From an uncultured Tateyamaria sp. (GTDB lineage: Bacteria; Pseudomonadota; Alphaproteobacteria; Rhodobacterales; Rhodobacteraceae): a stretch of DNA of 64,000 nt. The translations under genes were made by a program, and so were the position numbers. Below are positions 21,771 through 49,945 of this stretch, piece by piece. The stretch lies in NCBI RefSeq assembly GCF_947487805.1, contig NZ_CANKXW010000010.1:1-64000 (forward strand). Direction: 5' to 3'. Below the pieces are notes generated by a model. It saw only the letters and a list, made by a program, of their open reading frames with translations. It ran no database searches and was not told the origin of the DNA. Every line of letters starts with the position of its first letter. The first letter of the stretch is position 1.

Positions 21771-21872
21771 ATGGATCTCGCAATGCACCACGCCCTCTCC
21801 ACCAAGGCCGCGACCCTGTCCGTCGCACCTATGATGGATTGGACGAGTTTTATCTTTAATTCAATCAGTTGA
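21771..21872 (+). pseudogene. dusA: truncated 5' end of a dusA gene
   Basis: An open frame begins at ATG 21771 (or 21783) and reads through LSVAPMMDWT, the conserved start of DusA. It then departs into SFIFNSIS and a stop. From the ATG at 21783 there are eleven residues before LSVAPMMDWT, exactly as in the intact dusA at 48935. The upstream sequence also resembles the intact gene's upstream region (GGGGCT-GAC and ACCGG, then GTGCAG-ATG). It is best read as the original 5' end of dusA, cut off by insertion of the island on its right. Confidence 0.75.
21816..21844 (+). repeat. left attachment-site-like direct repeat (attL) in dusA
   Basis: This 29-bp stretch encodes LSVAPMMDW plus two bases and matches 48968-48996 at 25 of 29 positions. 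All four differences are at third codon positions (CTG/CTA, GCA/GCG, CCT/CCG, GAT/GAC). Similarity stops just after TGGAC. It marks the left junction of the putative island. Confidence 0.65.
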
Positions 21873-22099
21873 TGTGCGTCGTGTGCGCTGTATGTGCAAC
21901 ATGATTTCACCTTATGGCGTGCTCTGTCCGACGTTTGCCGATTATGTGGTTTTGTTCATATCAAGCGACGGGTGGCCTGAAACGATCTGGGAACTTTCAG
22001 GGCTTTGAGATGTGAGGTGATCACTCATCTTGCGATGTGATTTTTAGCCATTCGGGAAGTGACGGTTGACATACCGCACTTCGGGCATTTCGCGAAATA
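21873..22099. other. gene-free left edge of the island
   Basis: These 227 bp follow the dusA remnant and are noticeably richer in T and A than the flanking chromosome. I find no convincing gene, no integrase remnant and no clear terminator. The convergent carbamoylase gene ends at 22100. Confidence 0.5.
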
Positions 22100-23350
22100 T
22101 CAATTGCTGACCATCAAAACCCATTTCGTCAGCACATCTGTGGCCCGCGAAAAGTCATCAAACTCCATGGCCTCGTCGGGGTTGTGGCTGCCATTTCGGT
22201 TACGGATGAAAATCATTCCGGAGGGAACCCCAAGGCTTGCGAAGGTTGCGCAGTCGTGGCCTCCGCCTGAAGGTATTTCCATATGCGCAATGCCACACGC
22301 GTGCGCCGCAGCGATCAGCCCCTGTTGTATGTCGCGCGACATCGGGGACGCCGCAGCTTGCGTGCTGGTGCCCAGATCGATATCGACCCGGCGCCGCGCG
22401 GCGATATCCGACGCCTGGCTGTGCAGGAACGCTGCAAAACGGCTAAGGAGGGCCTCGTCCTGGCTGCGCACATCAAGTGTGAACGTCACAAGGCCGGGAA
22501 CCTTTGTGATGCCGTGCTGAAGAGGGTCAGTGGAGAATTCGCCGATGGTCAGAACCATGTCCTCTCCGGCAACTTCGGCGGCCTGCCACCATTCCTCAAG
22601 CGACGCCACCAGTTCAACACCGGCAAGCACGGCATCGCGGCGTCTGCAACGGGGCACACCGCCTGCATGGGTGGTTTCGCCTGTGATCCGGGCAAAGCGA
22701 TGGCGGATGTTGCCACGGATACCTGTAACGATACCGATCGGAATATCTGCGTCGACCAGGACCGGTCCCTGCTCTATGTGCACCTCAACAAAAGCCTTGA
22801 TCTTTTGTGGACCAAGCTGTGGTTTGCCGTCTCGGATGGCCTGAGGCTCAAATCCCGCCTCTTCCATATGATCTGCAAGAGTGCGCCCCGTATCTGATCG
22901 ACGTAGTTGATCAGGCGCTTCCGGTGGTAGCAGACCAAAGGCCGCACGGCTGCCGAGATAGTGGGTGGGGAACCAGATCATCTCTTCCGCGCGGATCACC
23001 ATCAGTATGACATCGCAGCGCAACGGTGGCCCCTCAGCAAGTCGTTCCAGCATAACAAGTCCTGCCAACACGCCTGCTGCGCCGTCGAAATTACCCCCAT
23101 GCGGCACACTATCCAGATGCGAGCCGGTCATCAAAACCGGTGCATTTTGGTCTTTGCCCGGCAGCGTGACGTAGAGATTGCCGACCGCATCGGTGTGATG
23201 GATCAGGCCGATCGCCTCTGCCTCTCGCCGGATCATCGCGTGTGCTGCGGTTTCGATAGTGCCAAAACTGGCGCGGGTCACGCCGGGCGCATCCGCGCTG
23301 ATTTCGGCCAGTTCTGCGAACAGGCGTTCGGCACGGGCGAGGGCGCTCAA
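22100..23350 (-). CDS. M20-family Zn amidohydrolase, N-carbamoyl-amino-acid hydrolase / allantoate amidohydrolase type
   Basis: 416 aa. Metal-site regions are TGSHLDSVPHGGNFDGAAG, RAEEMIWFPTHYLGSRA, VEVHIEQGP and NGSHNPDEAM. The usual EEExxRF block is altered to AEEMIWF. The family hydrolyses N-carbamoyl amino acids or allantoate, releasing CO2 and ammonia. The start is taken as TTG at 23350, which overlaps the dctM TGA (TTGA) and has GGAGG 6 bp upstream; no in-frame ATG fits the family start. With the hydantoinase at 28550 it would complete a hydantoin-to-amino-acid pathway. Confidence 0.85.
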   Translation of the reverse strand: MSALARAERLFAELAEISADAPGVTRASFGTIETAAHAMIRREAEAIGLIHHTDAVGNLYVTLPGKDQNAPVLMTGSHLDSVPHGGNFDGAAGVLAGLVMLERLAEGPPLRCDVILMVIRAEEMIWFPTHYLGSRAAFGLLPPEAPDQLRRSDTGRTLADHMEEAGFEPQAIRDGKPQLGPQKIKAFVEVHIEQGPVLVDADIPIGIVTGIRGNIRHRFARITGETTHAGGVPRCRRRDAVLAGVELVASLEEWWQAAEVAGEDMVLTIGEFSTDPLQHGITKVPGLVTFTLDVRSQDEALLSRFAAFLHSQASDIAARRRVDIDLGTSTQAAASPMSRDIQQGLIAAAHACGIAHMEIPSGGGHDCATFASLGVPSGMIFIRNRNGSHNPDEAMEFDDFSRATDVLTKWVLMVSN

Positions 23351-47914: not shown

Positions 47915-48763
47915 ATGGCTTCACGACTCATCCTTCGCATTCATGAAAAGCACGCGCGCCTGACAAGCAGTGAGCAGAAAATTGCCAATGTACTGGTGGA
48001 AAATCAGGGGCTTATAGAAACTCATACCGCGACTGAACTTGCAAATATGGCAGGCGTGTCCAAAGCGACAACTGCCCGTTTTTTTCGCAGTTTGGGATAC
48101 GTCGATTTTGAAGAAGTTCGCCTGCAGGCGCGGGAGGAACGGGACCGAACCCAGCCCTATTCCCAAAAAGAACAGGCACCGGACCAGGTCATACTTGGTC
48201 GGTCAATCGTCGACCATCTGGATTTGGAATTGCGCAATTTGACCCGAACTTTCGAAGAGCTGCGCTCGGACCGGTTGCCAGAGGTTGCTGAAATCCTTTC
48301 AACCGCGCCACGTGTCTGGTTTTTGGGATTTGGTGCTGAAGATGGTGTCGCACGCATTGGGAAAACGCTGTTCTCGCGATTGCGCCATGATGTTCATTAT
48401 CTTGATGGTGCAGGGCAGGACTGGGCAAGCGATTTGGCGATGATGGGCCCGCGTGATGCACTTGTCCTTGTTACGTTAGAGACACGTCCAAAGCTGTTGC
48501 GCTCGCTCTTGGCCTATGCGCGAACATCACGGCTTCGGATCATCACGATTACGGACCATCGCTATCAGGCGCAAGCAGAGCGCTTTTCTGAAACTGTCCT
48601 GGCTTGTCACGTTGCGAGCTATGGGATGCTGAATACGCATGCGACTGTTGTGTCTATGTTACGGCTGGTTGCGATAGCATATGTGGGAAAGAACCCTGTC
48701 GCCGTAAAACAGCGGGCCGAAACGCTTGACGCAATTGTTGAGGAACTTGATCTTCTGGAGTGA
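47915..48763 (+). CDS. MurR/RpiR-family transcriptional regulator
   Basis: 282 aa. N-terminal helix-turn-helix (about 1-80) with LTSSEQKIANVLVENQ and MAGVSKATTARFFRSLGYVD, then a SIS-type domain (about 120-250; FLGFGAEDGVARIGKTLFSR). The typical sugar-phosphate contacts of the SIS domain are replaced (VLVTLETRPKLLRSLLAYAR), so the effector is probably not a sugar phosphate. The ATG at 47915 has AGGA 13 bases before it; an upstream TTG at 47879 is possible. It is the last gene of the island before the rebuilt dusA. Confidence 0.85.
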   Translation: MASRLILRIHEKHARLTSSEQKIANVLVENQGLIETHTATELANMAGVSKATTARFFRSLGYVDFEEVRLQAREERDRTQPYSQKEQAPDQVILGRSIVDHLDLELRNLTRTFEELRSDRLPEVAEILSTAPRVWFLGFGAEDGVARIGKTLFSRLRHDVHYLDGAGQDWASDLAMMGPRDALVLVTLETRPKLLRSLLAYARTSRLRIITITDHRYQAQAERFSETVLACHVASYGMLNTHATVVSMLRLVAIAYVGKNPVAVKQRAETLDAIVEELDLLE

Positions 48764-48934
48764 GCTGCTCACTCGACCCGATGAAAAACAGAACGCCAAA
48801 CGAACACGCCCAGTTGCCCCCAATCCCCGCCCATAGCCTGTCGTCGTACCAGGGGGCTAGACTGCCTTAACCGGTATAAGTAAGCGTGCAGCATGGTCCC
48901 GAAAACCCGATCGCGGACCACAGGAGAGCCCAGA

Positions 48935-49945
48935 ATGCCCAACAACGCAGCCGCTGCGGCAGCGAAACTATCCGTCGCGCCGATGATGGACTGGACCGAC
49001 CGGCACTGCCGCTATCTGCATCGGCTGCTCAGCGGGCAGGCGCTGCTGTATACCGAGATGGTGACCGCGCCCGCACTCGTGCGGGGCGGGGCGCTGCATC
49101 TGCTGGATCATGACCCGGCTGAACATCCCGTCGCGCTGCAACTGGGCGGGTCGGACCCGCAGGAACTGGCGCAAGCCGCACGTTTGGGCGCGCAGGCAGG
49201 CTATGACGAGATCAACCTCAATTGCGGCTGCCCTTCCGACCGGGTTCAATCGGGGACCTTTGGCGCGGTTCTGATGCGCGATCCGGCGCGCGTGGCCGCC
49301 TGCGTGGCCGAGATGCGCCACGCGGTCGACGTGCCCGTCACGGTCAAATGCCGCATCGGCGTGGACGAACAGGACCCCGAAGAGGTGCTGCCCGAATTTC
49401 TGTCGCGCGTCGTCGCTGCGGGCTGCGAGCGGGTCACGATCCACGCCCGCAAGGCCTGGCTCAAGGGCCTCAGCCCCAAGGAAAACCGCGACATACCCCC
49501 GCTCGACTATGATCTGGTGATGCGGATGAAAGGGCTCTTTCCCAACCTGCACATCTCGATCAACGGCGGTGTCGACAGCATCGATCAGGCGGTCGATCTG
49601 CTGGATGCGGGCCTTGATGGCGTGATGATCGGACGCGCGGCCTATCACCAGCCCGCCGATATCCTCTGCACCGCCGACAGGCGCATCTTTGGCACCGGCA
49701 GGGATGCGACCGCTGAAGACGCGGTGGCCGCCATGCTGCCCTATATCGAAGCGCATCTGACAGAGGGCGGGCGCTTGCATCAGGTCACGCGCCATATGCT
49801 GGGCCTTTTTGCCGGGCGTCCCGGTGCGCGCGGCTGGCGTCGTGTGCTCAGCGAAGGGGCCACGCGCCCCGGTGCCGGGCCCGAGCTGGTCGAGGCCGCA
49901 TTGGCGCAGGTGACGGCGCTGGCCTCGACCGCCAAAGCGGTGTAG
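48935..49945 (+). CDS. dusA: tRNA-dihydrouridine synthase A
   Basis: 336 aa, full length. KLSVAPMMDWTDRHCRYLH opens the FMN barrel, NLNCGCPSDRV holds the catalytic Cys99, and TIHARKAWLKGLSPKENRD with NGGVDS gives the phosphate/FMN sites. It reduces uridines in the tRNA D-loop. ATG at 48935 has AGGAG upstream. Its promoter and first codons are probably supplied by the island: a diverged second copy of this 5' end lies at 21771. Confidence 0.95.
   Translation: MPNNAAAAAAKLSVAPMMDWTDRHCRYLHRLLSGQALLYTEMVTAPALVRGGALHLLDHDPAEHPVALQLGGSDPQELAQAARLGAQAGYDEINLNCGCPSDRVQSGTFGAVLMRDPARVAACVAEMRHAVDVPVTVKCRIGVDEQDPEEVLPEFLSRVVAAGCERVTIHARKAWLKGLSPKENRDIPPLDYDLVMRMKGLFPNLHISINGGVDSIDQAVDLLDAGLDGVMIGRAAYHQPADILCTADRRIFGTGRDATAEDAVAAMLPYIEAHLTEGGRLHQVTRHMLGLFAGRPGARGWRRVLSEGATRPGAGPELVEAALAQVTALASTAKAV
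48968..48996 (+). repeat. right attachment-site-like direct repeat (attR) in dusA
   Basis: Codons 12-20 of dusA plus two bases; matches the left repeat at 21816-21844 at 25 of 29 positions, all differences silent. Identity blocks are TCCGTCGC and ATGATGGA. It marks the right junction of the putative island. Confidence 0.65.

Follow-up and report, generated by a model that had tools for sequence, protein, structure and literature searches.

A dusA-linked island with a putative element left end and no detectable integrase in an uncultured Tateyamaria sp.

Genomic islands specific to the 5' end of dusA have been described by Farrugia et al. (2015, PMC4482086), with an integrase common to all of the islands in that paper. 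Among related systems, the element IMEVchUSA3 encodes Int and RdfN and is mobilised by a helper plasmid (PMC8409611), and the ssrA islands of Dehalococcoides include 15 without an integration module (PMC3146451). The locus reported here lies in a 64,000-nucleotide stretch of an uncultured Tateyamaria sp. (assembly GCF_947487805.1, contig NZ_CANKXW010000010.1, positions 1 to 64,000), called the window throughout. It comprises an intact dusA gene, a truncated dusA start 27 kb upstream of it and the block of predicted catabolic and transport genes between the two.

Like the islands of PMC4482086, the block targets the 5' end of dusA, has semiconserved repeats at its ends, leaves the original 5' end at the far end and fits a cargo that is varied and includes metabolic genes; unlike them, it has no detected integrase and its dusA leader is not of the integrase-linked type. 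Insertion into dusA, a new promoter and reading frame for dusA and a tandem pair of dusA elements are points of likeness to IMEVchUSA3 and the Vibrio dusA elements (PMC8409611), but Int and RdfN are encoded there, whereas Int was not found in the window block. With the cis-mobilizable ssrA islands of Dehalococcoides (PMC3146451) the locus shares target-gene repeats as bounds, tandem stacking and the lack of an integration module. The repeats there are the 3' end of a gene, whereas here they are the 5' end of a protein gene and the right boundary is a working leader and start of native type. The island in the window is probably an integrase-less remnant, namely the left end of a dusA-specific element stripped of its integrase, transfer genes and right end, and would now resemble a cis-mobilizable element.

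The truncated dusA start and the left attachment site

The frame at 21771–21872 translates as MDLAMHHALSTKAATLSVAPMMDWTSFIFNSIS before a stop codon, and 11 codons lead from its ATG at 21783 to the LSVAPMMDWT motif, as in the intact dusA from 48935; the dusA-like 5' frame proposed in an earlier sequence-only reading is real. The intact gene (48935–49945, plus strand) has a Pfam Dus match with an E value of 8e-80 and contains the right copy of the attachment core at 48968–48996, and the left copy occupies 21816–21844 on the plus strand. The two 29-bp blocks are identical at 25 of 29 positions, and the four mismatches all fall on third codon positions and leave the peptide unchanged. Zero 29-bp matches with four or fewer mismatches were found in 50 doublet-shuffled copies of the window (one strand). 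The left core is preceded by an orphan dusA promoter and leader with its first codons (leader A, 21716–21815, plus strand), a diverged leader of the MP type with a further ATG at 21771 upstream of the one at 21783. The upstream pieces reported as common to both copies are also present, namely GGGGCTGGAC at 21716 and GGGGGCTAGAC at 48852, with ACCGG and GTGCAG-ATG seen by eye. Genomes are given here by number, G000 being the genome of the window and G018 its nearest relative (sister by flanking genes). In blastn alignments that run through the core, leader A shows 76% identity over 63 bp to G014, 72% over 79 bp to G017 and 65% over 112 bp to the leader of the intact gene (leader B).

A dusA-specific genomic island is recognised by a junction at a conserved core in the dusA 5' end, by semiconserved direct repeats at both boundaries and by a dusA-associated integrase; the junction and the repeats (the 29-bp cores) are found here, and the integrase is not found in the block. 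The GC content of the block is 0.53–0.62 in 2-kb windows, versus 0.65–0.68 from 49 to 55 kb, and the gene order 3' of dusA is conserved in the genus genomes examined. All 41 genomes of the first search match DusA or a Dus paralogue. A local duplication of the dusA 5' end would account for the core and the promoter-like pieces common to both copies, but it is hardly credible given the silent-only differences, an identity of 65% across 112 bp and the presence of an element left end directly behind the core. The earlier judgement that this is not a simple local duplication holds on the same grounds.

The element left end (21845–21957, plus strand), aligned together with the core, exhibits 74.6% identity over 130 bp to the left end in G010 and 72.3% over 141 bp to that in G004 (E value 2.5e-14 each), with homology extending about 110 bp past the core. 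Within it an arm-like box, TCGTGTGCGCTGTATGTGCAA, is located at 21879–21899 on the plus strand, with one mismatch to the box found 135 bp before the core in integrase-bearing elements. The box starts 63 bp after the core start at 21816, the same spacing as in G004 and G010, and at five or fewer mismatches about 0.15 matches are expected by chance per shuffled 64 kb. Pairwise identity among nine left ends is 54–76%, versus 44% (standard deviation 3) for shuffled sequences; a tenth, from G017, gives 45–55%. The left-site pattern attL (core, 33 N, box, at most three mismatches) occurs in 8 of 394 family genomes, G000 included, and the reversed control gave 0. The left junction of the window is accordingly a genuine attachment site. 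Of the two attachment sites of a cis-mobilizable element, the left one is complete, and at the right the core is present and an arm box near leader B was not found.

The right-hand leader and the lack of a detectable integrase

Leader B (48818–48967, plus strand) is the working 5' end of dusA and encodes the peptide MPNNAAAAAAK. Aligned through the core, it shows 77% identity over 178 bp to G011, 74% over 181 bp to G006 and 69% over 186 bp to G266, and with the leaders of G014 and G412 (an orphan) included the range is likewise 69–77%. Over 150 bp it is 76% identical to G011 and 64–70% to G006, G014 and G266, with dusA bodies at 72–81%, and 46–61% identical to G005, G007, G008, G016 and G017, with bodies at 77–79%. 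Leaders of the MP..A.AA type are found in 10 of 20 genus genomes, including G000 and the divergent G011, G014 and G019. For comparison, named genomes gave 247 integrase loci, the best 80 of which yielded 76 right ends that contain the dusA core, and the best 80 viral-contig sequences yielded 78 leaders. Among the 76 integrase-linked right ends from these lists, 71 have an NQ/YQ/FQ leader and 0 an AAR/AAK leader, and 62 contain the box at -134/-135 with at most four mismatches. None of the 154 leaders in these best-80 sets matches leader B; the MP leader of G011 gave four weak matches to integrase-linked ends, the best three over 42 bp. Leader B is of the MP type and not of the integrase-linked type, and we read it as the usual leader of the genus, not the leader of an element. 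The proposal that the right 5' end was supplied by the incoming element finds no support in these counts, although leader B may have arrived with other DNA.

Leader B has no box near -97 (12 mismatches) and none within six mismatches, and a sigma-70 promoter scan of it found nothing. Import of the whole dusA gene was also considered and set aside; G018 is not the sister of G000 in the best dusA tree, but that grouping is not rejected (p-AU 0.43), and G018 is the clear sister of G000 for the flanking genes and for TauE (support 100/99 for TauE). The dusA of G018 itself (L069:1405) has a long branch and an unmatched leader of its own, suggesting exchange or relaxed evolution there.

Integrase-bearing elements occupy dusA in several relatives. 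In G004 and G010 the integrase adjoins dusA and is transcribed away from it, a 21-bp box stands 135 bp before the dusA core, and a second box is located 64 and 52 kb upstream, respectively, 63 bp after a second core behind a truncated dusA start. In G004, G010, G106 and G208 such a start lies 52–64 kb upstream and the integrase and an MQINQHA leader are found at dusA, the integrase match of G208 containing one TAG. The orphan starts of G004 and G010 (MATHANITRAAR and MATHADITRAAR) match the uninterrupted dusA of G002, MGTHADITRAAR. VirB8, TrbI, VirB4-like and VirB11-like proteins are encoded in G010 (L226–L227), with homologues of all four in G004 (L222–L225) and G208 and of three, plus a partial TrbI, in G106, and because of these genes the integrase-bearing elements look conjugative. 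Two small left-end open reading frames (ORFs), one each in G010 and G004, had no Pfam match. The dusA integrase is 80–100% identical across 39 loci (L092–L130) of many Roseobacter-group genera, at 93% or more in 26 of the 39, and the right-end leaders of G004, G010, G106 and G208 are 93–98% alike over dusA bodies of 66–78%; both observations point to a recent wide spread of this integrase. Left ends in L203, L208, L234 and L236 are only 61–76% alike though their integrases are 94–100% identical, as if left ends and integrase modules had separate histories.

No integrase is detectable in the block. The best tblastn match of the dusA integrase in the window has an E value of 0.18, and no match at E ≤ 1e-10, hence no helper integrase of that family, was found in G000; the genome holds 12 other tyrosine recombinase matches. 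The block yielded neither an integrase nor a remnant of one, and Pfam, applied to 26 of its ORFs (shortest 174 aa), showed no integration or transfer genes, as is the case in cis-mobilizable elements. Two genomes of other genera, G266 and G412, also have a left end without an integrase, at 35.6 and 30.4 kb, respectively, ahead of a dusA whose leader is not of the M..NQ.H type. Of the other seven carriers of the left-end pattern, G106 and G208 bear the integrase next to dusA. In G284 a remnant of the integrase, containing a stop, adjoins dusA, the leader remains MKINQHAR and the left end is on a different contig; in G308 an integrase fragment is located close to the left end, with dusA on a different contig; and G366 gave no integrase match and has its left end on a contig other than that of dusA. 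G017, whose left end is weak, may be another case, and G009 has an MQINQHAK leader, yet its integrase match is only 30% and lies elsewhere in the genome. The left-end cores of G284 (L232) and G308 (L229) have a right-end box in front of them at -135/-136, an arrangement like that of an element–element (tandem) or circular junction. Integrase hits of query L258 in the dusA regions of the window, G266, G412 and G017 were discounted, the hits being antisense to dusA and the query judged a read-through ORF.

The surrounding stack and the cargo

By blastn, window 1–1203 corresponds to G018 18–1231 and window 48968–51440 to G018 1414–3888, and 1204–48967 is missing there. The left chromosomal flank (1–1203, plus strand, 78% to G018:C7 18–1231) contains an L,D-transpeptidase gene (173–829, Pfam YkuD) and about 370 bp after it. 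In G018 dusA comes shortly after this gene, so that all of 1204–48967 (47.8 kb) is extra in the window and the 27-kb block forms the interior of a larger stack. The site-specific insertion in the dusA 5' end put forward in the sequence-only reading stands, given the spacing and sequence match of the left junction to integrase-bearing dusA elements, but the single 27-kb insertion is not supported. Nor is the LysR gene the native neighbour of dusA that it was taken for; of the 20 genus genomes, five, G000 among them, have a LysR match at E ≤ 1e-60, and in the other four it does not adjoin dusA. Elsewhere in G011 and G014 the LysR gene is accompanied by the gene for D-glutamate cyclase and by the first part of the TRAP gene, which, with the extra 1204–48967, makes the truncated dusA copy an internal junction of the stack. 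In G011 (G011:C247:77027-86905, L045) this cluster begins between two tyrosine recombinase matches.

Two observations had been named in advance as arguing against insertion. As to the first, a second dusA 5' copy is present in three other genus genomes (G004, G010 and G017), but there it is followed by other content. As to the second, synteny of the block with dusA, G266 from another genus has about 17 kb of the 27 kb in common with the window at dusA, and in that genome too a left end comes first. Upstream of dusA the transpeptidase gene also occurs in G008, at a distance of 16 kb, and in G017, at 62 kb. Sequence upstream of dusA was compared for 20 genomes, 17 in the genus and three in other genera, over at most 20 kb (11 kb in G002); at 40% identity and E 1e-15 only the transpeptidase gene (G008) and ABC ATPases (G001, G016) are in common with the window.

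The outer, left segment of the stack (1204–21815) is absent from G018 and by Pfam contains arsenic-type genes, a C-P lyase/phosphonate operon and a TRAP–D-glutamate cyclase–LysR cluster before ending in leader A. At 1270–4855 an HTH–LMWP phosphatase fusion, GAPDH and MFS genes follow small ORFs; we take these ORFs, by eye, to be mercury-transport-like, and the set as a whole is presumably arsenic-resistance-like. The C-P lyase genes (PhnG, H, I, J) and a phosphonate transporter form a cluster at 6651–16510 on the minus strand.

The block itself begins with catabolic module 1 (22100–32904, minus strand), in which Pfam and NCBIfam identify a hydantoinase/carbamoylase-family amidase, a TRAP transporter, PuuE-like deacetylases, Asp/Glu racemases, a dihydropyrimidinase and an amidase; it shows 75% identity over 10.8 kb to the dusA island of G266. 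An ABC importer of the SBP_bac_6 type (32901–36735, minus strand) has no blastn match in that island. Next are a GntR regulator and module 2 (36818–43354, minus strand), with two TRZ/ATZ-like amidohydrolases and an NMT1-type ABC importer; against G266, module 2 gives 77% over 5.9 kb and the GntR gene 70% over 541 bp, in a different order. Profile matches identify a second NMT1-type ABC importer and a 5-FTHF cyclo-ligase-like gene at 43766–47870 (minus strand). The last gene, at 47879–48763 on the plus strand, encodes an RpiR-family regulator, which 9 of 295 family genomes, counting G000, match at E ≤ 1e-50; a donor with this gene next to dusA was sought, and no dusA core was found in the 1.5-kb flanks in the eight other genomes. 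The hydantoinase/carbamoylase-family amidase and the dihydropyrimidinase exceed the NCBIfam cut-offs; the PuuE, amidase and TRZ/ATZ matches fall under theirs, so that the substrates are putative. The cargo is predicted to serve ureide/hydantoin-type catabolism and transport. The part of the cargo that recurs at dusA in G266 (both modules and the GntR gene) comes to about 17 kb at 70–77% nucleotide identity. A recent transfer of cargo between G000 and G266 was rejected; protein identity reaches up to 94%, but nucleotide identity is 75–77%, close to that of dusA itself (74%). A plasmid search with part of module 1 (26000–32900) gave 123 records with partial matches, none covering 80%, and a literature search joining dusA, Roseobacter and genomic island found no paper.

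Origin of the block

According to the favoured reading, that of a remnant, a dusA-specific integrative element, of the kind that bears a type IV secretion system in relatives, would once have undergone recombination at the core within the dusA 5' end. Its scar would be the left attachment site, made up of leader A, the core and the element left end with the arm-like box. Later loss or exchange of the transfer genes and the right end (integrase gene, arm box at -135 and substitute leader M..NQ.H) would have left the ureide/hydantoin-type block between the left attachment site and dusA, within the larger foreign stack, and dusA would now be read from leader B. Lacking an integrase of its own, the block would either be unable to move or depend on functions supplied in trans, as cis-mobilizable elements do. 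We infer the order of these events, the manner in which the right end was exchanged and the immobility of the block. Several points weigh against this reading. The block and the integrase-bearing elements have no cargo in common at 45% identity or more, so that descent from such an element rests on the roughly 110 bp of left end. G009 and G284 keep an M..NQ.H-like leader after integrase loss, and integrase loss alone therefore does not explain leader B. It may also be that dusA has always had leader B as its native start and that leader A and the left end are the imports; the dusA body is compatible with G018 as sister and gives no support for import of the gene body. The parallels are also few (G266 and G412), the left end of G017 being near the shuffled level.

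If a single element with the left end and leader B had instead entered a dusA with leader A and later lost its integrase by deletion, recombination at the core would not have replaced the native gene body, as the dusA body data permit, and element-supplied leaders are the rule for such elements (PMC4482086). This course is nevertheless improbable, since the left end in the window resembles the integrase subfamily whose right ends encode M..NQ.H-like leaders and mostly carry the -134/-135 box, and leader B has neither feature. Doubtful as well is a class of integrase-less elements, in which MP leaders are right arms moved in trans by a resident integrase family and the block is a complete cis-mobilizable unit. 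Its basis is an arm-like box at -97/-98 in the MP leaders of G006, G011, G266 and the orphans of G412 and G208 (0 of 1000 shuffles each), which in G266 differs from the left-end box at 1 of 21 positions, together with homology among MP leaders that stops at about -145 to -165 in most long pairs (G006–G011, at -300, excepted). Four more MP leaders reach p ≤ 0.01 near -97, and leader A has a weak box at -81 (p 0.03). However, no box near -97 was found in leaders A and B or in those of G005, G007 and G016. Some leaders diverge like bodies (76 versus 75% for G000–G011) and others far more (46–61 versus 77–79% for G005, G007, G008, G016 and G017), and nothing points to recent movement of MP leaders, in contrast to the four integrase-linked right ends that are 93–98% alike.

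The -97 box may be either a native promoter that resembles an arm site or a sign that the 'native' leader is an old element end. Tentatively, the 'native' dusA promoter and N-terminus of the family might be domesticated right arms of ancient elements, and islands like this one integrase-less passengers whose right boundary is the host leader and which conjugative relatives could move in trans; if so, host gene starts would result from turnover as one insertion succeeded another. Exchange at a hotspot, by homologous recombination within the flanks (the transpeptidase gene and dusA), could also have imported a ready-made stack of leader A, left end, cargo and leader B. In G008 and G017 the sequence covered between these flanks has only weak transporter-gene matches to the interval of the window, G018 is empty there, and modules 1 and 2 recur at dusA in another genus, all in keeping with such exchange. 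It is an unlikely origin all the same, as neither the dusA body nor TauE points to an imported tract, G000 and G018 group as sisters in TauE, and the question of how the stack arose is merely shifted to the donor.

The locus indicates that a pair of dusA repeats does not by itself define an intact island, the left scar being real and the right end apparently not that of the element. Integrase-less left ends recur in other genera, and the succession of orphan leader, left end and exchanged right end offers a trail for studying how metabolic islands become fixed. It also raises the question of whether the closely related integrases circulating among Roseobacter relatives may excise integrase-less dusA islands.

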